A program made the translations under genes and the position numbers. From Candidatus Kapaibacterium thiocyanatum (GTDB taxonomy: Bacteria > Bacteroidota > Ignavibacteria > Kapaibacteriales > Kapaibacteriaceae): a stretch of DNA of 64,000 nt. The notes beneath the pieces were generated by a model. That model saw only the letters and a list, made by a program, of their open reading frames with translations. It did no database searches and was not told the origin of the DNA. Positions 35,871-46,973 of this stretch are shown here, in pieces; the stretch's first letter is position 1, and every line of letters begins with the position of its first letter. Location: positions 124,001-188,000 of the forward strand of contig MKVH01000013.1 in assembly GCA_001899175.1 (NCBI GenBank). The letters run 5' to 3'.

Positions 35871-37013
35871 CTACGACAGTTCGGTGACGCCTGACATCAG
35901 GGCCTCTTCGTACAGGGCTTCGTACTGGGGGACGATGAGGGAGATGTCGAACTTCTCCACGGCGCGTTTGCGCGCGTTCTCGCTGAAGATGTTGAGCTTC
36001 TTGGGATTGGAGAGCAGTTCGACGCAGTACTTGGCCATGCGTTGCACATCGCCGAGTTCGGCGATGTAGCCCGTATCTCCGTGCGCGACGACTTCCGGAA
36101 TGCCGCCGATGTTCGTGGCCACGACGGGCACCGAACAGCTCATGGCCTCGAGGGCCGACAGACCGAAACTCTCCTGCTGGCTCGGAAGAAGGAAGATGTC
36201 GGCCACGGAAAGGATTTCCGGCAGGGCCGACTGCTTTCCGAGGAACTTCACGTGATCGACGAGACCGAGATCGCGCACGAGCCGTTCGGCTTCGGAACGT
36301 TCGGGGCCATCGCCCACCAGGAGCAGCGTGGCATTGATGCTCTTGCGTACTTCGGAGAGGATGTGGATGCAGTCCTGTACCCTCTTCACCGGACGGAAGT
36401 TGGATACGTGCATGAGAATGTGTTCGCCGTTGCCGCGTATCTGACGTTCCAGTTGCGTGCACCGCGTACGCTGATACAGGTTCGTATCCACGAAGTTAGG
36501 GATCACGCGTATGGACATGTCGGGCGCGAAGTTCTGCCGCGTCTTCTCCTGCAGGAAGCCCGATACGGCCGTCACGACGTCCGAACGCTCCAGTGAGAAC
36601 TTCACGAGAGGATGGAAGGACGGTTCGAGTCCGACGAGGGTGATGTCCGTGCCATGCAGCGTCGTGATGAGGCGCATGGGCTTGGAGCCCTGCATGATCT
36701 CCCGCGCCAGATATCCGCTGATGGCATGCGGAATGGCATAGTGGACGTGCAGGATATCGAGGTTCTCGTACTTGGCGACGTCGATGATCTTGCCTGCCAG
36801 AGCCAGGGTGTAGAGATTGAATTCGAGCAGTGGATACGTCGGCGTCTCCACCTCATGATAGTAGATGTTATCTTGGAACCTGTCCAGCCTCATGGGCTGG
36901 GCATAGGTGATGAAGTGGACGCTGTGACCACGCCGTGCCAGTTCCTGGCCGAGTTCGGTCGCGAGCACACCGCTGCCACCGTATGTTGGATAACAGACCA
37001 TTCCGATACGCAT
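35871..37013 (-). CDS. bshA: N-acetyl-alpha-D-glucosaminyl L-malate synthase
   Basis: A 380-residue GT4 glycosyltransferase. The N-terminus MRIGMVCYPTYGGSGVLATELG and HVHYAIPHAISGYLAR, LHGTDITLVG, SDVVTAVSGFLQ are characteristic of BshA, which joins GlcNAc to L-malate in the first step of bacillithiol synthesis. The nucleotide-sugar motif is PSQQESFGLSALEAMSC with the EX7E glutamates. Its presence implies bacillithiol as the low-molecular-weight thiol. It diverges from the YigZ-like gene, whose start is only 23 bp away. Confidence 0.92.
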   Translation of the reverse strand: MRIGMVCYPTYGGSGVLATELGQELARRGHSVHFITYAQPMRLDRFQDNIYYHEVETPTYPLLEFNLYTLALAGKIIDVAKYENLDILHVHYAIPHAISGYLAREIMQGSKPMRLITTLHGTDITLVGLEPSFHPLVKFSLERSDVVTAVSGFLQEKTRQNFAPDMSIRVIPNFVDTNLYQRTRCTQLERQIRGNGEHILMHVSNFRPVKRVQDCIHILSEVRKSINATLLLVGDGPERSEAERLVRDLGLVDHVKFLGKQSALPEILSVADIFLLPSQQESFGLSALEAMSCSVPVVATNIGGIPEVVAHGDTGYIAELGDVQRMAKYCVELLSNPKKLNIFSENARKRAVEKFDISLIVPQYEALYEEALMSGVTELS

Positions 37014-37036
37014 GCACTTCCTTTTTCCAGTACGTG

Positions 37037-37645
37037 ATGGCAACTGACGAATATTGGACCGTAGCTGCCGAAACGAGAGCCGAAATTACCATCAAACGTT
37101 CGGTCTTCCTTGCCTGTGCGTTACACAGCCCCGCGAGGGAGGACGCGATGGCCTACGTCGAGCGTTTGAGAAAAGAGTTCTTCGATGCCGTTCACCACTG
37201 CTTCGCCTACCGTCTGGGGCAGCATGGTCTCGATTATCGCATGTCCGATGACGGCGAACCGTCGGGTACCGCGGGCAAACCGATCCTCTTCTGTCTCCAG
37301 AAGGCGCAATTGACGGATTCGGTAGTGGTCGTAGTGCGTTATTTCGGCGGAATCAAGCTCGGCACGGGAGGTCTCGCACGGGCGTATTCGGAAGCGGCCA
37401 CGGACGTACTCGCCTCGTGTCCCCGCCGCAAGGTCGTCCAGACCCGTCCGCTCTCCATTTTCTGCACGTACGACGATATCGCCCGTATCACCGGGCTGCT
37501 GGAAGAACTGGATATCCCCTTCCTGCCCATCTATGCCGACGCGGTGACGTTCGACGTCGACGTTCCTCAATCGCAGGTCGACTTCGTCATCGCCCAGGTG
37601 ACGAGCCGCACGAATGCACGGGCGGGATACTCCCTGAGGGACTAG
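37037..37645 (+). CDS. IMPACT (YigZ) family protein
   Basis: A 202-residue protein of the YigZ/IMPACT family. The N-terminal domain has KRSVFLACALHSPAR, HCFAYRLG, SDDGEPSGTAGKPIL and VVVVRYFGGIKLGTGGLARAY, all family signatures; the C-terminal DUF1949-like domain completes it. The family is linked to translation control and RNA or GTPase interactions but its exact action is unsettled. Start is the ATG giving MATDEYWT. It overlaps the next convergent gene by 4 bp. Confidence 0.9.
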   Translation: MATDEYWTVAAETRAEITIKRSVFLACALHSPAREDAMAYVERLRKEFFDAVHHCFAYRLGQHGLDYRMSDDGEPSGTAGKPILFCLQKAQLTDSVVVVVRYFGGIKLGTGGLARAYSEAATDVLASCPRRKVVQTRPLSIFCTYDDIARITGLLEELDIPFLPIYADAVTFDVDVPQSQVDFVIAQVTSRTNARAGYSLRD

Positions 37646-40600
37646 AAGTCCGCTCCGAGCGAGAACAGGTAGACCGGTTGGGAGAATATTCCCGACGCTT
37701 CGCGCCGCCATGCCACGTCGAAACGCAGCGGCAGGCCCAGTGCGAGCGATCGTATGCCGAAACCGGTGCTGTAGAGGATCGGATTGGAAGCGATGTTCCC
37801 ATCCGGCGTATAGGCACGGTTACCGTCGTCGAACGCACCGCCCATGTCGAGGAAGAGCTGGGCCTGCAGACCCTGGAACAGGGCGGGAATGGGGCCGGCC
37901 TGGAAGGCGAAGAGCAGCGGGAACCGGAATTCGGCGTTACCGATGAAGTACTTCGATCCGTAGCGTTCGTTGATCCCCCATCCGCGCAGCGGCCATCCCG
38001 GTCGTGTGAAGGCGAAATCCTCGGGATTGACGAAGGGCCATCCGTTGGCGGAGAAGAAGCGGTTGAACCAGTTGTCCGTACCGCCGATGAAGAATTTCTG
38101 CGGATTGGCGCCCATGCTCATACCGCCTGCACCACGCAGTGCGATCGAATACGCTCCGCCGAGATGGATGTATTCGCGAAGGTCGGTGCGCAGCGTCACG
38201 AAGCCGAGACCGTTGTTGCCGAGTTTCGGCGATCCTTCGACGGTGAGGTTCGCGCGGGTTCCGTCGACCGGAGCCCAGAATCCCTGCAGCGTGTTGTCGT
38301 AGACGTAGGAAGCCTGCGGTACCGTCACGAAGCGGGACAGTGACGGCGACGTCGGGAAGTCGATGTTCTCGCGCGACATGGCCATGGCCTGGATGCCGAG
38401 GTCGAACCGTGAGTATCTGCTGAAGGGATACGATCCCCACAACGTCATGCCGTAGTTGCGCAGACGGAAGAGGACGGAGCCGATGTAGGTATAGCCGGCG
38501 TTGTGGAAGGCCGCCACACGATAGTCGACGATGTCCGGCAGGTAGCCGTAGGACAGGTAGAAGTTGCTGTTGCTGAGATCGAGGAAGAGATTGGCCTGGA
38601 AGTAGATCTCGTGATCGCCCATCATGTCCGTGAACAGCATCTGTGCTGTTCCCTGCGCGCCGTACCAGTTACTGTAGCCGGCATTGCCGGTGATGACGTC
38701 CGGACTGAACGATACGCGATAGTCCTTCGGCGTGAAGTCGGTGTTCACGCTGTCCTTGTTGCCGCCTTCCGTCGCACCCTTCACGACGACGTCCTCGTTC
38801 GGCGGCACGACCTTCTGGCGGCTGAAGTCGATGTCGAAGTTCCCGTAGGCGGCCACACTGTCCGGACGCGGTGCGTCGAGGTTGAGCATGATGGCCGACA
38901 GCGAGTTGCGGTTGTCGAGTTCCTGCTGGCGGAACTTCGTGAGCGGAAGCGTATCGCGCTCTTTCTGCTCGAACGGGAACTTGAGAAGGAAGAGGTCGTA
39001 GCCGACGCGGTTCTGCGACGAGAACAGCATCTTGGTGCCGTCCTTCGTGATCGAGATCTGGCTGACTTCCTGCAGCGAGTTCGTGCGCGCGTGGCGTTCG
39101 CCCGTCGCGAGACTCAGTTCCCAGAGGTTGCCGATACCGTTGTAGTCGGCTACGTAGAGGATGCTGCGATGGTCGGGTGCCACGACGATGGAGTACTTCC
39201 CGACCGAAGGATCGTTCGTGATGCGTCTGATCGAACCGGAGTCGAGCGTGATGCTGTAGATGTCGCGTTGCGAGACGTCATGCGTCCACATCGCGAAGTT
39301 GTCGATGGTCTCGCCGCCATCCACGAATCGTCCGCGATCCGAGATGAAGTAGATCGTGCGGCCGTCGGGGGCCCATGCCGGCTCCATGTCCGTGAAGACA
39401 TCGTTGGTGAGCTGACGTAGCGAGTCATTGTCGATGCCGTAGGCGTACAGGTCGGACTGGGTTCCACCCGGTGCGGCGTCGAAGACGATGTACTTCCCGT
39501 CCGGCGACCACGATACGCCGCCCATCGTCTGGAATCCGAATTCCTTCCTGTCGTATCCCCCGCCGTCGACGTCGATGATGTAGAGGGCGTCCTGGCCGCC
39601 GGACTTGGCACCGACGGCAAGACGTTTCCCGGCAGGATCCCATGAGATGCCGGGTGTGAGGAAGTTCAGCTCCTCGAAATCCGTGCTGCGACCGCTGCTC
39701 TGCAGCTTTCGTACCTTCTTCGTCGCCAGTTCCATGACGTAGAGACCGAAGGTTCCGTCACGGTCGGAAATGAAGGCCACACGCTCACCGTCCGGAGAAA
39801 CGGCCGGCGACGTGTTGTAGAAGTTGTCTTCCTTCTGGTGATTGGTCAGACGCGTCGAATAGTCTTCGACGTATTCGTACTTGTCGACGTCCGGGAAGTA
39901 GAACTTCTTGATGTCCTTCGCCCACTGATCCGACATCTCTTCGTACGTCATGCCGAAGGCAGCACGGAAGGTCTGATTGACGTCGCCGATGGAGCGGAAC
40001 CTGTTGAACACCTCGCCCACCTTGCCCTTGCCGTACTTCTCGGCCACGTACCACCAGAATGCCTGGCCACCGCGATAGGCGAAGTAGCCGTTGAGCTGGT
40101 TCAGGCCGCGGAGGTATTCGCTTACGGCCACGTCGCGCATGAACTGGTCCGTCTTGATGTCCAGCCCACCCGTGCTCGAATATTCCGCGAAGCCTTCGTT
40201 CATCCAGATGGGAATGATGGCGCGGACGTTGTTGCTGAGAAGGGACTGGATGGAGCCGCCGTAGAACATGTCGTTCAGGACGGCATGCACGAGTTCGTGA
40301 TGGATGACGTGGGCGAACTTCTGGTAGTCGCCTTCGAACGGAATCACGATACGGTTCTTGAAGAGCTCGGTCACACCACCGATTCCCTCCGACATGAATT
40401 CGTCGAGGACGTTCGTCTGCTGGAACTGGTTGTGCGAGTTATAGACGATGAAGACGATGCGCTTCGTGATCGAATACGTCAGCGTGCCTTCGATTTCCGT
40501 GAGGGCTTTTTCGGCCTTCAGTGCCGTGAACTTCGCGGCATATTCGCCGCCTTCATGGAAGTAGACGTCGAAGTTCTCCGACTGTATGAAGCGCCACTTG

Positions 40601-40713
40601 AATTTTTCGTATTGAACCTTGTTCTTGCCGAAAGGCAGGCTGCCGCCGATCTGTGCCAGCATGGGCGCTACGGCGAGCATGAGAAGAAGGGAGAGTGAGG
40701 TCAGCCGACGCAT
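37642..40713 (-). CDS. Outer-membrane protein with metalloprotease, propeller and barrel regions
   Basis: A 1023-residue exported protein with three parts. Residues about 40-290 form a gluzincin zinc-protease domain: HHELVH (139-143, HExxH) and NEGFAEY (172-178, the third ligand Glu), with SLLSNNVRAIIPIW between them. Residues about 300-600 form TolB/PD40-like repeats (SPAVSPDGERVAFISDRDG, AWAPDGRTIYFISDRGRF). Residues about 700-1023 are strand-rich with aromatic girdles and end VYLFSLGADF, like an outer-membrane beta-barrel (surface-antigen type). It follows the RNase III gene by 86 bp. Protease active-site residues look intact. The substrate is unknown. Confidence 0.75.
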   Translation of the reverse strand: MRRLTSLSLLLMLAVAPMLAQIGGSLPFGKNKVQYEKFKWRFIQSENFDVYFHEGGEYAAKFTALKAEKALTEIEGTLTYSITKRIVFIVYNSHNQFQQTNVLDEFMSEGIGGVTELFKNRIVIPFEGDYQKFAHVIHHELVHAVLNDMFYGGSIQSLLSNNVRAIIPIWMNEGFAEYSSTGGLDIKTDQFMRDVAVSEYLRGLNQLNGYFAYRGGQAFWWYVAEKYGKGKVGEVFNRFRSIGDVNQTFRAAFGMTYEEMSDQWAKDIKKFYFPDVDKYEYVEDYSTRLTNHQKEDNFYNTSPAVSPDGERVAFISDRDGTFGLYVMELATKKVRKLQSSGRSTDFEELNFLTPGISWDPAGKRLAVGAKSGGQDALYIIDVDGGGYDRKEFGFQTMGGVSWSPDGKYIVFDAAPGGTQSDLYAYGIDNDSLRQLTNDVFTDMEPAWAPDGRTIYFISDRGRFVDGGETIDNFAMWTHDVSQRDIYSITLDSGSIRRITNDPSVGKYSIVVAPDHRSILYVADYNGIGNLWELSLATGERHARTNSLQEVSQISITKDGTKMLFSSQNRVGYDLFLLKFPFEQKERDTLPLTKFRQQELDNRNSLSAIMLNLDAPRPDSVAAYGNFDIDFSRQKVVPPNEDVVVKGATEGGNKDSVNTDFTPKDYRVSFSPDVITGNAGYSNWYGAQGTAQMLFTDMMGDHEIYFQANLFLDLSNSNFYLSYGYLPDIVDYRVAAFHNAGYTYIGSVLFRLRNYGMTLWGSYPFSRYSRFDLGIQAMAMSRENIDFPTSPSLSRFVTVPQASYVYDNTLQGFWAPVDGTRANLTVEGSPKLGNNGLGFVTLRTDLREYIHLGGAYSIALRGAGGMSMGANPQKFFIGGTDNWFNRFFSANGWPFVNPEDFAFTRPGWPLRGWGINERYGSKYFIGNAEFRFPLLFAFQAGPIPALFQGLQAQLFLDMGGAFDDGNRAYTPDGNIASNPILYSTGFGIRSLALGLPLRFDVAWRREASGIFSQPVYLFSLGADF

Positions 40714-40799: not shown

Positions 40800-41660
40800 T
40801 TAGTGAGACGGGGCTTCGTTCTCGTTGCTGGAGTGCCTGCGGCGTCGCGTGCGTTCACGGCGGCGATTCAGGTGTTCCAGGCCGAGCTCTGCGGCCCGTT
40901 GTTCGGCGTCCTTCTTCGTCCGCCCCGTTCCCTTGCCGATGCAGCGGTCGTCCACGTAGACTTCCACCGTGAACTGTTTCTCGTGATCGGGTCCTTCCTC
41001 GAGGACGACGACGTAGCGCGGGGCGGCATGGCCCCTGCTCTGCACGTCTTCCAGCAGGAGACTCTTGAAGTTGGTATCGTGGACGAGACTTTCCTTGACC
41101 ATGATGGGCAGGAGCTTGTTCACGATGAACTTCCGTACCTCGTCGAAGCCACGGTCCACGTAGACGGCAGCGATGATCGCTTCCAGGGCATCGGCGAGCA
41201 TACTGTCGTTGCCGCGCTGGAGCGACTGCTTCGCGCTGAAGCTGAGGAAGAGGAAGTCCTCGAGGTGCATGGCACGGGCGCAGATGGCGAGCGATTTCTT
41301 GTTCACCAGCCAGGAGCGCATCTTCGTGAGTTCGCCCTCGAGCACTTCCCTGTTGTTGTAGAACAGGTATTCGGCCGTCACCATGCCCAGGATGGAATCA
41401 CCGAGGAATTCCAGCCGTTCGTTGGAGCGGTGGTCGGGCGTATTGGCGACCTGGAGGTAGGAACGGTGCGTCAGCGCCTGCTCGAACATGGCCGGGTTGT
41501 GGATAGTGACGCCGAGAGTGGCCTCCAGCTCCGTCACCCGTTGGGCGGACAGGACGTTCATCGGCGGGAACAGTTCACGGGAGACGGCGTCGCCCGATGA
41601 TCCTCTCACCGACGTGAACTTGAGCAGGTTGCTGTAGAGCTGGCGAACGATATCCTTCAC
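40800..41660 (-). CDS. rnc: Ribonuclease III
   Basis: A 286-residue RNase III, which cleaves double-stranded RNA in rRNA maturation and turnover. The catalytic motif is ERLEFLGDS (81-89) with the second metal-site acidic residues near D157 and E160 (LADALEAIIAAVYVDRG). A dsRNA-binding domain occupies about 192-262, and the C-terminus is basic (RRRERTRRRRHS). The N-terminal about 45 residues extend beyond the usual start. It is last in the fatty-acid operon, 34 bp after fabF, the order found in many Bacteroidota. Confidence 0.95.
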   Translation of the reverse strand: MKDIVRQLYSNLLKFTSVRGSSGDAVSRELFPPMNVLSAQRVTELEATLGVTIHNPAMFEQALTHRSYLQVANTPDHRSNERLEFLGDSILGMVTAEYLFYNNREVLEGELTKMRSWLVNKKSLAICARAMHLEDFLFLSFSAKQSLQRGNDSMLADALEAIIAAVYVDRGFDEVRKFIVNKLLPIMVKESLVHDTNFKSLLLEDVQSRGHAAPRYVVVLEEGPDHEKQFTVEVYVDDRCIGKGTGRTKKDAEQRAAELGLEHLNRRRERTRRRRHSSNENEAPSH

Positions 41661-41694: not shown

Positions 41695-42954
41695 TCATTC
41701 TTCGAATGCCTTGAAGCATAACGTGGCGTTATGACCGCCGAAGCCGAAGGTATTGCTCAGGGCCGCGCGTATACGGCGCGGTTTGGGCGTATTGGCGACG
41801 TAGTCGAGCGTACAATCCGGGTCGGGGGTGAACTGGTTGATGGTCGGCGGAGCGATCTGTTCCTTCAGCGCCAGGGCCGTGGCCACGGCTTCGACGGCGC
41901 CGGCGGCGCCGAGAAGATGGCCCGTCATCGACTTCGTGGAGCTGACGGACATGGTATCGGCATGATCGCCGAATACCGTGCGGATGGCTGCCGATTCGGA
42001 CCGGTCGTTGAACGGCGTCGACGTACCGTGAGCGTTGATGTAGTCGATATCCGAAGGAAGCAGGCCTGCGTCCTCGATGGCGAGGCGCATGGAGCGTACT
42101 GCACCTTCACCACCCGGAGCGGGTTGCGTGATGTGGAAGGCATCATCGGTAAGACCGATGCCGCAGATTTCCGCATAGATGGTAGCGCCACGATTCATGG
42201 CGTGTTCGAGGGTTTCGAGGACGAGAACGCCTCCCCCTTCACCCATGACGAAGCCGTCCCTGTCCTTGTCGAACGGACGGCTGGCCGTGGAGGGATCGTC
42301 GTTCCGCGTCGAGAGCGCTTTCATGGCGTTGAAGCCACCGATGCCCATGGGGCAGACGACGGCTTCGGAACCACCGGCGAGCATGACGTCGGCCATGCCG
42401 CGCTGCATGATCATGAGCGCATCGGCGATGGAGTGCGACGACGTTGCGCATGCCGATACGGTGCCGTAGTTCGGTCCCTTGAGACCGTAACGAATGGCGA
42501 TATGGCCGGCAGCGATATCGGAGATGAGCATCGGTACGAAGAACGGCGAGATCCGGTCCGGTACGCCGTGTCGTTCGTACAGATTCTGTTGCTGATGGTG
42601 GTAGGTCCACATTCCGCCGATACCGGAACCGAAGATCACGCCCGTACGTTCACGGTTCGTGACTTCGAAGTCGATGCCGGAATCCTCGACGGCCATGATG
42701 GCCGCCGACATGGCGAACTGCGCAAAGAGGTCCATGCGCTGGACCTCCTTGCGCGAGATATGCAGAAGAGGATCGTAATCCTTGACCTCCGCGGCAAAGC
42801 GCGTTTCAAACTGCGTCGCGTCGAACCGTGTGATGGGCGCTGCCCCACTTCGGCCCGACATCATTCCCGACCAGAACGCATCCTTGGTGTTTCCGATGGG
42901 AGTGACGGCACCGAGGCCGGTGACGACGATACGTGGAACGTTATTCCGCGGCAT
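41695..42954 (-). CDS. fabF: 3-oxoacyl-ACP synthase II
   Basis: A 419-residue KAS II for chain elongation in type II fatty acid synthesis. The Cys-His-His triad is intact: Cys169 (VSACATSSH), His309 (NAHGTSTPF) and His346 (SMTGHLLGA). The start at MPRNN gives the standard N-terminus PRIVVTGLGAVTP. It follows acpP by 25 bp. Full length and no disruption. Confidence 0.96.
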   Translation of the reverse strand: MPRNNVPRIVVTGLGAVTPIGNTKDAFWSGMMSGRSGAAPITRFDATQFETRFAAEVKDYDPLLHISRKEVQRMDLFAQFAMSAAIMAVEDSGIDFEVTNRERTGVIFGSGIGGMWTYHHQQQNLYERHGVPDRISPFFVPMLISDIAAGHIAIRYGLKGPNYGTVSACATSSHSIADALMIMQRGMADVMLAGGSEAVVCPMGIGGFNAMKALSTRNDDPSTASRPFDKDRDGFVMGEGGGVLVLETLEHAMNRGATIYAEICGIGLTDDAFHITQPAPGGEGAVRSMRLAIEDAGLLPSDIDYINAHGTSTPFNDRSESAAIRTVFGDHADTMSVSSTKSMTGHLLGAAGAVEAVATALALKEQIAPPTINQFTPDPDCTLDYVANTPKPRRIRAALSNTFGFGGHNATLCFKAFEE

Positions 42955-42979
42955 AGGACCTACCGAAAGTTCAACGGGA

Positions 42980-43216
42980 TCAGGAAGCCTTAGATTCGAT
43001 ATACGTGATTGCGTCGCCGACAGACTGGATCTTTTCGGCATCTGCATCTTCGATCGTCATGTTGAATGCACGTTCGAACTCCATGATGAGCTCTACGGTG
43101 TCGAGCGAGTCCGCACCGAGGTCATTGGTGAACGAAGCACCAGGCGTGACTTGCGATTCTTCAACGCCAAGCTTGTTGACGATGATCTCGGTCACCTTTT
43201 GCGCCACAGTCGACAT
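42980..43216 (-). CDS. acpP: Acyl carrier protein
   Basis: A 78-residue ACP. The phosphopantetheine-attachment Ser is in [11 protein letters not shown] (Ser37), and the four-helix pattern is complete with acidic recognition helix II. The ATG (MSTVAQK) has a GAGGG ribosome site. It carries acyl chains for FabD, FabH, FabG, FabF and PlsX encoded beside it. Confidence 0.97.
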
Positions 43217-43259
43217 AAAAACCCTCAGAGAATTGAGTTGAAGAAACGAACATTCACAG

Positions 43260-44018
43260 TTACATCGCCAGCCCACCGTCCACGTTCAGAACCTGTCCGG
43301 TGATATAGGAAGATTGATCGGAGAGCAGGAAGGAAACCACGCCGGCTATCTCATCGGGACTCGCAGGACGCTTGAGAGGAACCGACTCCGTAAATGCCGA
43401 TTTCTGATCCCCCGTCAATTTGTCCGTCATGTCGGTCTCGACATAGCCCGGAGCGACGCAATTTACTAAAATGTTACGAGAGGCAAGTTCGCGCGCAAGC
43501 GAGCGTGTAAGCCCTACGAGACCGGCTTTCGCCGCACTGTAGTTGACCTGTCCGGCATTGCCGCCGAGGCCTACGATGGAGCCGATGTTGACGATCCGGC
43601 CCGAGCGTTGCGACATCATCGGACGTGCCACGGCACGGCATGCATAGAACACGCCGGTGAGGTTCGTGCGCAGGACGTCGTCCCAGTCCTTCGTACTCAT
43701 CCGCATGATGAGGCCGTCGCGCGTGATGCCTGCGTTGTTGACGAGACCGTCGATGCGACCGGCCGTGGATACGACGTGGTCGATGAGGCCCTTGACGCTC
43801 TCTTCGTTCGAAACGTCGATCTGGAGATACTCCACCGTGCCGCCCGCCGCCACGATTTCCGCACGGATGGCTTCCGCACGTTCGGGTTGCGAATTGTACG
43901 TCGTGAAGACGCGGCCGCCTTCGGCCGCCAGACGTCGTACGATGGCTTCGCCGATACCACGCGATCCGCCCGTCACGATGAATACCTTGCCGTCATGCGT
44001 CGTTGCGGACATAGTCAT
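43260..44018 (-). CDS. fabG: 3-oxoacyl-ACP reductase
   Basis: A 252-residue short-chain dehydrogenase. The NADPH motif is [11 protein letters not shown] (16-26), NNAGITRDG lies near 94-102, and the catalytic triad is Ser147 (IGSIVG), Tyr160 and Lys164 (YSAAK). It reduces 3-oxoacyl-ACP. The ATG overlaps the fabD stop by 4 bp. The C-terminal [13 protein letters not shown] is typical of FabG. Confidence 0.95.
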
Positions 44019-44947
44019 GATCCTTTCGTCGACAAATAGCGTTCTACATCATCGGCCGTATCGATACCGTCGCACTGCACGTTGTCGATCGTTCTCTTCG
44101 CCAGTCCCTGCAGAACCTTGCCGGGACCTATTTCGACGGCTTCGGTGATTCCCGCACGCTGCATCGCTTCCAGGGTCTGCGTCCACAGCACGGGCGACGT
44201 CAACTGCCGGATGGCACTGTCCCTCAGCGCCCCAGCTTCGCGGACGGCCGTCGCGCTGACGTTCACGTAGACGTCGATGCGGGCGTCATGGAAGGTCGTC
44301 GCGTGGATCCGCTCCGCGAGCGGCTTCTCGGCCTCGGCCAGCAAGGGCGAGTGGAACGCGCCGCTGACTTGCAGTTCCTTGACCAGCTTCGCACCGGCCT
44401 CCTTGAAGCGAGGCATGCAGGCGCGAAGATACTCCGCGGAACCGGAGATCACGACCTGTCCGGGCGAATTGAAGTTCGCGGGGACGAGGACGTTGCCGTC
44501 GACGCCATCGAGTTCATCGCAGAGGGTCCGTACGGCCCGGTCGTCGAGGCCGACGACGGCCGCCATCGTACCGGGAATGATCGTACCGGCGTCGAACATC
44601 AGTGTAGCACGGAGCTGGACGAGTTGCAGGGCATCCTCGAAGGACAGTACACCGGCCGCATGGAGGGCCGAGTATTCTCCAAGGGAATGTCCCGCGACGG
44701 CATCCGCATGCTTCTCGATACCAGTTACGGCAAGCAGGGCGGCTTCGTGGACGAACAGGGCCGGCTGCGTATAGCGCGTTTCCCTGAGCGTCGGCTCCGG
44801 ACCGTCCATCATGATCGTGCTGAGGCCGTAGCCCAGAACTTCGTCCGCACGCCGGATGAGATCACGGGCGGCATCGAAGCGCTCGGAGAGATCCCTGGCC
44901 ATGCCCACGTACTGCGAGCCTTGACCTGAAAACATCAATGCCTTCAT
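44015..44947 (-). CDS. fabD: Malonyl-CoA:ACP transacylase
   Basis: A 310-residue FabD. The nucleophile is Ser88 in GHSLGEYSAL and the partner His199 is in SGAFHSPLL; the N-terminal FSGQGSQYVGM is diagnostic. It loads malonyl groups onto ACP. It overlaps fabH and fabG by 4 bp on each side, so the four fab genes are translationally coupled. Confidence 0.96.
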   Translation of the reverse strand: MKALMFSGQGSQYVGMARDLSERFDAARDLIRRADEVLGYGLSTIMMDGPEPTLRETRYTQPALFVHEAALLAVTGIEKHADAVAGHSLGEYSALHAAGVLSFEDALQLVQLRATLMFDAGTIIPGTMAAVVGLDDRAVRTLCDELDGVDGNVLVPANFNSPGQVVISGSAEYLRACMPRFKEAGAKLVKELQVSGAFHSPLLAEAEKPLAERIHATTFHDARIDVYVNVSATAVREAGALRDSAIRQLTSPVLWTQTLEAMQRAGITEAVEIGPGKVLQGLAKRTIDNVQCDGIDTADDVERYLSTKGS

Positions 44948-45951
44948 GCCTTGTCCTTGGTTACGGGATCGAGCGACCAGCGGAGGAGGACGCTGCCCCA
45001 GGTGTATCCTGCGCCGAAGCTGGCGAGGACGACGTTGTCGCCCCGATGCAACTGCCCGTTATGATAGAGTTCCGACAGACACAGCGGAATCGTTCCCGCC
45101 GTCGTGTTGCCGTAGCGCTGGATGTTGACCATCACCTTGTCTTTCGACAGGCCCATGCGCTCGGCTGCCGCATCGATGATGCGGAGGTTCGCCTGGTGCG
45201 GTACGAACCAGGCCACGTCGTCGGCCGTGAGTCCGTTGCGGTGCATGATCTCGTAGGATACGTCGGCCATGCCCTTGACGGCTGCCTTGAAGACGGCCTG
45301 ACCTTCCTGATAGACGAAGTGTTCGCGTGCATCGACGGTTTCGTGGGTGGGTGGACGGAGGCTGCCGCCCGCCTTCTGATGCAGGTGCTGCTCACCGTTG
45401 CCGTCCATGCGGAGAATGTGGTCGAGAACGCCGAACGAATCGTCCTCGGACTTCTCGAGCAGGACGACGCCTCCGCCATCGCCGAAGAGCACGCACGTGG
45501 TGCGGTCCTCGAAGTTGATGATCGAGCTCATCTTGTCCCCGCCGCAGAGCAGGACGTTGCGTACGGCACCGGACTCGACGAGCTTGGCCGCCGTGACGAT
45601 ACCGTAGATGAAGCCCGAGCACGCTGCCGAGAGGTCGAATCCCCAGGCATTGGTCGCACCCAGCTTGCGTTGCAGGATTGCGGCCGATGCCGGGAAGATG
45701 CGATCCGCGGTGACCGTACAGAGGATGATGCAGTCGATGTCGTTCGCCGTGATTCCACGCTGCCGGAGCACCTCCTCGGCGGCCGGAAGAAGGATGTCCG
45801 TGACGCCGCCTTCGGTCGCGAAATGACGTTCACGGATACCGGTACGGGACTGGATCCATTCGTCGTTCGTGTCGATGCGTTCTTCGAACCACTTGTTGTC
45901 GTAGACGTCCGGAGGTACGGAATGGGCGATGGCTGTTATTGTGGCCTTCAT
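44944..45951 (-). CDS. fabH: 3-oxoacyl-ACP synthase III
   Basis: A 335-residue KAS III that starts fatty acid synthesis by condensing acyl-CoA with malonyl-ACP. The triad is Cys111 (LSAACSGFIYG), His252 (VPHQANLRI) and Asn282 (YGNTTAGT). It overlaps plsX by 4 bp. Length and motifs are normal. Confidence 0.96.
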   Translation of the reverse strand: MKATITAIAHSVPPDVYDNKWFEERIDTNDEWIQSRTGIRERHFATEGGVTDILLPAAEEVLRQRGITANDIDCIILCTVTADRIFPASAAILQRKLGATNAWGFDLSAACSGFIYGIVTAAKLVESGAVRNVLLCGGDKMSSIINFEDRTTCVLFGDGGGVVLLEKSEDDSFGVLDHILRMDGNGEQHLHQKAGGSLRPPTHETVDAREHFVYQEGQAVFKAAVKGMADVSYEIMHRNGLTADDVAWFVPHQANLRIIDAAAERMGLSKDKVMVNIQRYGNTTAGTIPLCLSELYHNGQLHRGDNVVLASFGAGYTWGSVLLRWSLDPVTKDKA

Positions 45952-46973
45952 GCGTGTTCCGTCTGTGATGTGGAGGGGGCGGCCAGAGCCGCCTTGATAT
46001 GGCCGTTGACGTCCTTCCGGACGACTTCCACGGCCCGCACGATCATATTGGAAATGGCCACAGGGCTCGACGAGCCGTGGCCGATGATGACGACGCCGTT
46101 GATGCCGAGCAGGGGCACACCACCGTATTCCTGATAGTCCATATCCTTCAGCGCGGACTTCAGTACGGGGGCGAAGGCGCCGATGAGAAGCTTCTGGACG
46201 AGTCCCCTGTCCGCATATGCGCGCAGCTTGGCCTTGAGAAAGCCGAGGACGCTTTCCGCGAACTTGAGGACGATGTTGCCTTCGAAGCCATCGCAGACGA
46301 TGACGTCGACCGTACCGGCCAGCACGTCACGTCCTTCGACGTTTCCGATGAAACGGATGGGCTTCGTCCTGAGCAGGTCGTAGGTTTCCTTCGCGACTTC
46401 CGTTCCCTTGCCCTCTTCCTCGCCCACATTGAGCAGGCCGACGGAAGGATCGTCGACGCCCATCATCTGCTTGCAGTAGACGGAGCCCATCACGGCATAG
46501 TCGCCGAGGAACTTCGGTTTACTGTCAACGTTGGCGCCGACGTCGACGAGAAGACAGGGGCGACCTGTCTTCGTAGGGAAGAAGGAACCGATGGTAGGAC
46601 GGCTCACCCCGGGAAGGCGTCCGCACAACATCGTAGCGGTTGCCATCACGGCTCCGGTGTTTCCACCGGAGACAAAGGCATCCGCTTGGCCATCGCGCAT
46701 GAGAGCGAGGCCGACATACAATGAAGATTGCTGACGGTGTTTGATGATCGAGGAGGGTTCATCGCCCATGCCGACGACGTCGGGAGCATGGACGATGCGA
46801 CAACCGCTCGTCACTTCCTTATTCGCGAGAAGAGGCTGCAATTCTTCCTCGCGACCCACCAGGATGAGTTCCACATCTCCGCCAAGGGTTTTCAGTGCCT
46901 GGATGGCACCGATAACCTCGTTCGCGGGGGCGTGATCACCCCCCATGGCGTCCAGTACGACCCGGACGGGCAT
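45948..46973 (-). CDS. plsX: Phosphate acyltransferase PlsX
   Basis: A 341-residue PlsX, which makes acyl-phosphate from acyl-ACP for phospholipid synthesis. The N-terminus VVLDAMGGDHAP, VSGGNTGAVMA and VCDGFEGNIVLKF are family signatures. The start codon is 4 bp from the rpmF stop. Order rpmF-plsX-fabH is conserved across many bacteria and supports the call. Confidence 0.95.
   Translation of the reverse strand: MPVRVVLDAMGGDHAPANEVIGAIQALKTLGGDVELILVGREEELQPLLANKEVTSGCRIVHAPDVVGMGDEPSSIIKHRQQSSLYVGLALMRDGQADAFVSGGNTGAVMATATMLCGRLPGVSRPTIGSFFPTKTGRPCLLVDVGANVDSKPKFLGDYAVMGSVYCKQMMGVDDPSVGLLNVGEEEGKGTEVAKETYDLLRTKPIRFIGNVEGRDVLAGTVDVIVCDGFEGNIVLKFAESVLGFLKAKLRAYADRGLVQKLLIGAFAPVLKSALKDMDYQEYGGVPLLGINGVVIIGHGSSSPVAISNMIVRAVEVVRKDVNGHIKAALAAPSTSQTEHA

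Follow-up and report, generated by a model that had tools for sequence, protein, structure and literature searches.

Gene and domain architecture

The window analysed here is a stretch of 64,000 nucleotides from Candidatus Kapaibacterium thiocyanatum (phylum Bacteroidota, class Ignavibacteria, order Kapaibacteriales; assembly GCA_001899175.1, contig MKVH01000013.1, positions 124,001 to 188,000 of the forward strand), and the subject of this analysis is a single gene within it, hereafter the protease-barrel gene, whose features are collected in Table 1. The order along the chain of signal peptide, peptidase, propeller, disordered linker and barrel is well supported; a preliminary description, made from the sequence, had proposed a zinc protease, a TolB/PD40 propeller and an outer-membrane barrel in one protein, and Pfam, AlphaFold and fold matches all bore this out. 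The plus-strand reading of the same interval is interrupted by five stops, the coding strand being the minus strand, and an AAGGAA resembling a ribosome-binding site was read by eye just upstream of the gene start. The organism's own genome carries one full-length copy and two further matches confined to the propeller, and its one Peptidase_MA_2 match is this protein.

Table 1. Features of the protease-barrel gene and its upstream neighbours, in window coordinates.
Feature	Residues	Position	Strand	Basis or remark
Whole gene	1023 aa	37642..40713	(-)	ORF (open reading frame) list; ATG start
Signal peptide, without lipobox cysteine	~1-20	40654..40713	(-)	Direct sequence reading
Peptidase domain, Peptidase_MA_2 gluzincin	28-285	39859..40632	(-)	PF13485 and fold
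HELVH, predicted zinc ligands and general base	139-143	40285..40299	(-)	H139, E140, H143 invariant (78 sequences)
Second motif, E173 to E177 in NEGFAEY	173-177	40183..40197	(-)	Both invariant (78 sequences)
TolB-like beta-propeller	290-590	38944..39846	(-)	PD40 and TolB fold
Variable linker	612-657	38743..38880	(-)	pLDDT (predicted local distance difference test) mostly <50 (614-655)
Omp85-type barrel	659-1023	37645..38739	(-)	Strand list, PF01103, BamA/TamA folds
PLRGW, in long loop between counted strands 11 and 12	908-912	37978..37992	(-)	P908, R910, G911 invariant (78 sequences)
C-terminal LFSLGADF, last strand resembling a beta-signal, with a final Phe		37645..37668	(-)	Sequence
rnc (RNase III), 86 bp upstream of the protease-barrel gene		40800..41660	(-)	Named by reading; same strand
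fabF, fabG, fabD, fabH, plsX		41695..46973	(-)	Named by reading; same strand

For comparison, 80 relative loci were fetched from named public contigs, of which 79 were readable. Full-length rows were obtained from 77 of the 80, which ruled out an assembly artefact; the exceptions were L074, whose reading frame contains a stop, and L080 and L081, which run off their contigs. An alignment of 78 sequences, from which L067 is absent, gave an AlphaFold model with a mean pLDDT of 85.4, a predicted template modelling score of 0.83 and three confident regions. In this alignment 86 positions were invariant, of which the peptidase (258 residues) accounts for 38, the barrel (365 residues) for 32, the propeller (301 residues) for 15 and the linker for 1.

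The peptidase domain is a predicted gluzincin

In the full-length protein Pfam placed Peptidase_MA_2 at residues 69-268 (E 3.8e-13; 50.2 bits, the cut-off being 32.4), and the excised domain matched PF13485 at E 1.5e-14. Residues 26-285, modelled separately with AlphaFold, reached a pLDDT of 84.7, and the closest solved folds were M9 collagenases, namely 7wss (VIA Z 16.7 over 231 residues, 5.0 Å) and 4ar1 (Z 16.6 over 225 residues, 4.0 Å), followed among the matches listed by M1 aminopeptidases (Z 12.3-13.7). Foldseek on the peptidase model returned modest E-values (best 9.7e-5), and the peptidase profile run against the sequences of solved structures gave chance-level matches only, with no solved relative. 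The long spacing from HExxH to the downstream Glu also resembles that of M9 collagenase. However, the structural alignments run at 9-15% identity, so that the collagenase matches are a likeness of fold and not evidence for collagenase activity, and the protein studied here differs from those enzymes in being a predicted outer-membrane protein of Pfam class Peptidase_MA_2.

The preliminary description had located HELVH correctly, and the region around residue 177 to which it pointed does hold the second motif, NEGFAEY. By gluzincin precedent we take E173 to be the third zinc ligand and E177 a second-shell residue. HExxH was retained in close relatives, at all 79 readable loci. Taken together, the Pfam match over its cut-off, the HExxH with downstream Glu and the zincin fold of M9/M1 type place the domain among the gluzincins, and from these sequence features the zinc protease is predicted to be active in the window's clade.

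A TolB-like propeller precedes an Omp85-type barrel

The propeller was matched by PD40 in four stretches of the full-length protein (E 2e-25), and its nearest fold was TolB 3iax (Z 27.7 over 244 residues, 2.2 Å). It did not pass as a TolB equivalog, scoring 116.8 bits with TIGR02800 against a cut-off of 343.15.

The full-length Pfam scan returned no Omp85 match for this protein, whereas the excised C-terminal part matched PF01103 (Omp85) at E 2.5e-8, its 34.3 bits exceeding the cut-off of 24, a match found also by six-frame search. The barrel aligned with BamA 8xnb (Z 25.9, 311 residues, 3.5 Å), with Flavobacterium johnsoniae BamA 9n2d (Z 25.1, 311 residues, 3.6 Å) and with the TamA barrel 8us4 (Z 22.8, 284 residues, 3.5 Å). 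By our own count from the strand list of the model there are 16 membrane strands, running from residues 670-681 to 1014-1019, with one extra short strand (659-664) ahead of them. That the C-terminus forms a barrel, as had been proposed, agrees with the predicted structure, and the evidence for its closure is that it aligns with the closed barrels of BamA and TamA, together with the 16-strand count. The loop bearing PLRGW spans residues 868-920 of the model and supplies, in R910 and G911, the RG motif of Omp85 loop 6; we take it to be where BamA carries its (V/I)RG(F/Y) loop-6 motif.

No POTRA domain was found in the full-length Pfam scan, a weak negative by itself as the same scan missed Omp85. 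Residues 28-590 are filled by peptidase and propeller and are followed by the disordered linker, which leaves the protein without the POTRA domains that would mark a BamA or TamA orthologue. The likeness to BamA, TamA and TamL lies in the barrel fold and the position of the loop-6 RG motif, and the difference in the presence of protease and propeller with no POTRA found. The genome also holds two POTRA-bearing Omp85 proteins.

Spread in the phylum

A profile built from 23 sequences, with at most two first-look candidates scored per genome, matched 191 of the 296 sampled genomes of the phylum at E<=1e-50, in 120 of 140 genera, and the possibility of a rare fusion was rejected on this basis. A query with the single protein at E<=1e-3 reached 274 of the 296 genomes and all 99 in the order, looser counts that take in weak matches, of which many or some are confined to the propeller. 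The weakest do not represent this protein: among the matches listed, families f24, f25, f28 and f46 gave propeller-region or other short matches only. One genome, G231 of family f47, held five profile stretches at E<=1e-40, apparently belonging to three genes in three places on one contig.

The zinc site is kept in most homologues and missing from two clades

The search yielded 220 profile matches, of which 216 covered peptidase and propeller and 183 were left after removal of duplicates. The five zinc-site residues were complete in 159 of these 183 distinct homologues (158 as scored, plus L030, which has HELVH in its locus and was scored as a gap owing to a late start choice) and not in the other 24. 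Loss of HELVH in orthologues had been named as a result that would count against the preliminary description, and it was seen in part; the site was kept in the 159, and in the 24, which fall into two clades, it was missing with the rest of the profile still matching.

A tree was computed from 84 of the 183 sequences, thinned at 62% identity and filtered for length, with the motif columns blanked, by a quick method with support from the Shimodaira-Hasegawa-like approximate likelihood ratio test only. On this tree the state of the zinc site needs two changes, against a mean of about 15 for shuffled states, and none of 500 shuffles came as low. The larger site-less clade lies at the midpoint root, placed for drawing, so that the tree alone gives no direction; it is because the domain is a zincin that the two changes are read as losses.

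The larger site-less clade comprises 22 of the 24 proteins and 14 rows of the tree, from families f23, f32, f34, f35, f36 and f43, and lies outside the window's class, by our guess in Bacteroidia. Its members have lost HExxH, with stray survivors such as H139 in one and E173 in three. The smaller clade belongs to f5, a family of the window's order, and consists of L069 and L226, in which both histidines of HELVH are lost and E140, E173 and E177 are kept. Active and site-less types occur side by side in at least two f32 genomes (G178 and G158).

The active proteins are split by the tree into group A, to which the window's protein belongs, group B, with FVRGY and a C-terminus ending in PGW, and group C, which is shorter. 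The members of group C, L203, L234 and L236, are active-type paralogues of roughly 900-970 aa that form a third branch, and the genomes of L234 and L236 hold a group A copy as well. In the active groups the peptidase was the most conserved of the three domains: its identity relative to that of the other two, in a comparison that leaves out the short L206, was 1.26 in A, 1.23 in B and 1.16 in C (three pairs only). Among the site-less proteins the same comparison gave 1.11 for the 13 rows of the larger clade and 0.83 for the one pair from f5. Judged from sequence, the site-less peptidase domain appears to persist without its chemistry, with its relative conservation somewhat relaxed. A Pfam scan of five relatives found Peptidase_MA_2 in none of three site-less proteins and in one of two active group B proteins, and Omp85 in none of the five; the architecture of relatives missed by Pfam, the site-less ones included, rests on profile coverage over all three domains.

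Genomic neighbourhood

The gene order plsX-fabH-fabD-fabG-fabF-rnc followed by the protease-barrel gene is kept in close relatives. Across the 80 loci an rnc homologue was present at 13 and was the directly upstream gene at 12, and homologues of the fab genes and plsX were present at 10 to 13, the count for fabG including one weak match on the opposite strand. The directly upstream gene at 19 of the 80 loci was rnr (RNase R; Pfam on one member), and at 15 of the 80 a TamB/AsmA-like gene precedes rnr, upstream on the same strand. More than 3.5 kb of upstream sequence is held by only 55 of the 80 loci, so that absences of neighbours are partly unseen.

Among three TamB/AsmA-like neighbours scanned with Pfam, that of L130 matched TamB (3.9e-17) and those of L143 and L107 matched only DUF748 or AsmA. 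PF04357 was matched in 11 of 14 carrier genomes searched, from the 15 carriers; pairing by frame length, we infer that the match is the neighbour itself in 10 carriers, and in 8 it was the sole protein over the cut-off. Between the protease-barrel proteins of the carriers identity ranges over 49-80%, and at 60% identity these proteins fall into two groups.

Two genes of heptose/lipopolysaccharide-core type (by reading; clusters 10 and 17) recur farther upstream. At its stop end the protease-barrel gene is overlapped by 4 bases by a YigZ/IMPACT-like ORF (by reading; 36935-37645, plus strand), and this convergent pair recurs at most loci where the YigZ/IMPACT-like homologue was found.

Discussion

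We favour, with a confidence that is about evenly balanced, the reading that this is an outer-membrane assembly or quality-control protein with its protease facing inward, in the manner of BepA at the beta-barrel assembly machinery (BAM) but as a single chain. After export by Sec it would be inserted into the outer membrane, where the gluzincin protease and TolB-like propeller would occupy the usual POTRA position of an Omp85 protein and would be held on the periplasmic side. The propeller would most likely be a docking site for partners or clients, in the way of BamB or TolB, and at the barrel the protease would cleave stalled or misassembled outer-membrane proteins, or process clients. In the forms lacking the zinc site the chassis would presumably hold proteins or help to assemble them without proteolysis.

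A periplasmic location of protease and propeller is likely by Omp85 precedent: in the Omp85 proteins characterised so far the N-terminal domains are periplasmic, and PlpD, an enzyme-Omp85 protein tested in vivo, keeps its enzyme domain in the periplasm (PMC11116518). PlpD and other patatin-Omp85 proteins resemble the present protein in placing an enzyme domain ahead of an Omp85 barrel, but PlpD has a lipase-type domain and POTRA, without propeller or protease. The genome of the window itself also encodes a patatin-Omp85 (PlpD-like) protein, L152 (G000:C25:195472-196323; Patatin E 2.5e-13, Omp85 E 3.9e-13). BepA is described as a zinc protease acting at BAM (PMC8423444, PMC13067283), and by the analogy that we propose the present protein would likewise place a zinc metalloprotease at a barrel of the Omp85 assembly type; however, BepA of Escherichia coli is an M48 enzyme and a separate periplasmic protein, whereas the present domain has an M9/M1-like fold and is fused to the barrel.

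The lipid and envelope neighbours (plsX-fab-rnc and the TamB/AsmA-like genes), the confident model, the invariant zinc residues and the wide spread all speak for an assembly or quality-control role. Several observations weigh against it. Two separate clades lack the complete zinc site although their architecture is retained, and 105 of the 296 genomes gave no match at E<=1e-50, so that the protein is not universal. The genes found most often directly beside it encode RNases (rnr at 19 of 80 loci, rnc at 12), a sign that the synteny may in part be accidental, and the TamB of the organism's own genome sits on another contig and not beside the gene. The barrel here may not insert clients, given that no assembly role has been demonstrated for PlpD, itself an Omp85 protein, and our literature search turned up no experiment on any member.

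The alternative that survives best, which we nevertheless think unlikely, is an assembly platform akin to a BamA-BamB fusion, whose working parts would be the propeller and the barrel, with the peptidase serving chiefly for structure or binding. It corresponds to what Heinz and Lithgow proposed for WD40-Omp85 (PMC4104836), and is in keeping with the two clades in which all three domains remain covered by the profile without a complete zinc site, the peptidase of the larger one being still as conserved as the rest of the protein. However, a purely structural role does not predict the invariant catalytic residues of the window's clade, nor a peptidase that is the best conserved domain.

Less probable still would be a module resembling the translocation and assembly module (TAM; reviewed in PMC11014939), in which the barrel partners a TamB/AsmA-like bridge and moves lipids or envelope precursors while the protease regulates. 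The recurrence of the TamB/AsmA-like gene, with RNase R between, the PF04357 matches in carriers and the plsX-fab run that adjoins the gene in the window's relatives are consistent with such a module. Against this, the two identity groups of carriers may represent one inherited block, PF04357 found nothing in 3 of the 14 carriers searched and in a further one matched at another place, two of the three neighbours scanned matched DUF748/AsmA models only, and the separate contig of the own genome's TamB counts here also.

The least probable reading, and a decidedly improbable one, is that of the preliminary description, namely a surface protease needing no separate secretion system, whose barrel would export its own peptidase and propeller in a type Vd-like manner to act outside the cell. 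The fold nearest to the peptidase is that of M9 collagenases, which are secreted enzymes, and export was raised as one option for an enzyme-bearing Omp85 group by Heinz and Lithgow (PMC4104836). However, the barrel is Omp85-type, PlpD, the type Vd prototype, keeps its enzyme domain unexported (PMC11116518), a folded propeller would probably not fit through the lumen, and the 16 counted strands would leave both termini on the periplasmic side; the idea was set aside as improbable on the fold and the PlpD precedent.

Among named groups the protein comes closest to WD40-Omp85, defined by a TolB-like propeller and likened to a BamA-BamB fusion by Heinz and Lithgow (2014, PMC4104836). It shares with that group the defining TolB-like propeller before an Omp85 barrel, without POTRA, but section 10 and other passages of that paper mention no peptidase before the propeller. 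The 'Metallo' Omp85 group of the same source is characterised by PF00149, called a metalloprotease domain there. No PF00149 was among the Pfam matches of the present protein, which has PF13485 instead. As PF00149 is, we presume, a calcineurin-like phosphoesterase, 'Metallo-Omp85' may be misnamed.

In a 2024 paper (PMC11116518) the Omp85 groups with WD40-like or metalloprotease domains are said to be not well characterised, and the word 'propeller' is absent from the main texts on F. johnsoniae BAM (PMC12611786) and TamL (PMC12045153). Our literature search, from which subscription papers were mostly out of reach, found no description of peptidase, propeller and barrel in combination; for 'WD40-Omp85' it returned only the naming paper, and for Omp85 with pseudoprotease nothing related. 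The WD40-Omp85 branch thus seems experimentally untouched, and what is new here is the pattern of the zinc site, which 159 of 183 homologues have in full and two separate clades lack with the architecture kept, together with the lipid and envelope neighbours.

On a fuller version of the assembly or quality-control reading, which we put forward tentatively and regard as doubtful in its entirety, this would be a phylum-wide quality-control protein composed of a protease, a docking propeller and an Omp85 barrel, which in some lineages would act as a 'proteolytic TAM' with a TamB/AsmA-like bridge and would twice have become a protease-dead assembly factor of unchanged body plan. Omp85 proteins build outer membranes, and the WD40-Omp85-type proteins of this phylum carry a conserved zinc protease whose predicted catalytic residues are now named. 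The natural site-less versions make the question of whether proteolysis matters at an assembly-type barrel directly testable.

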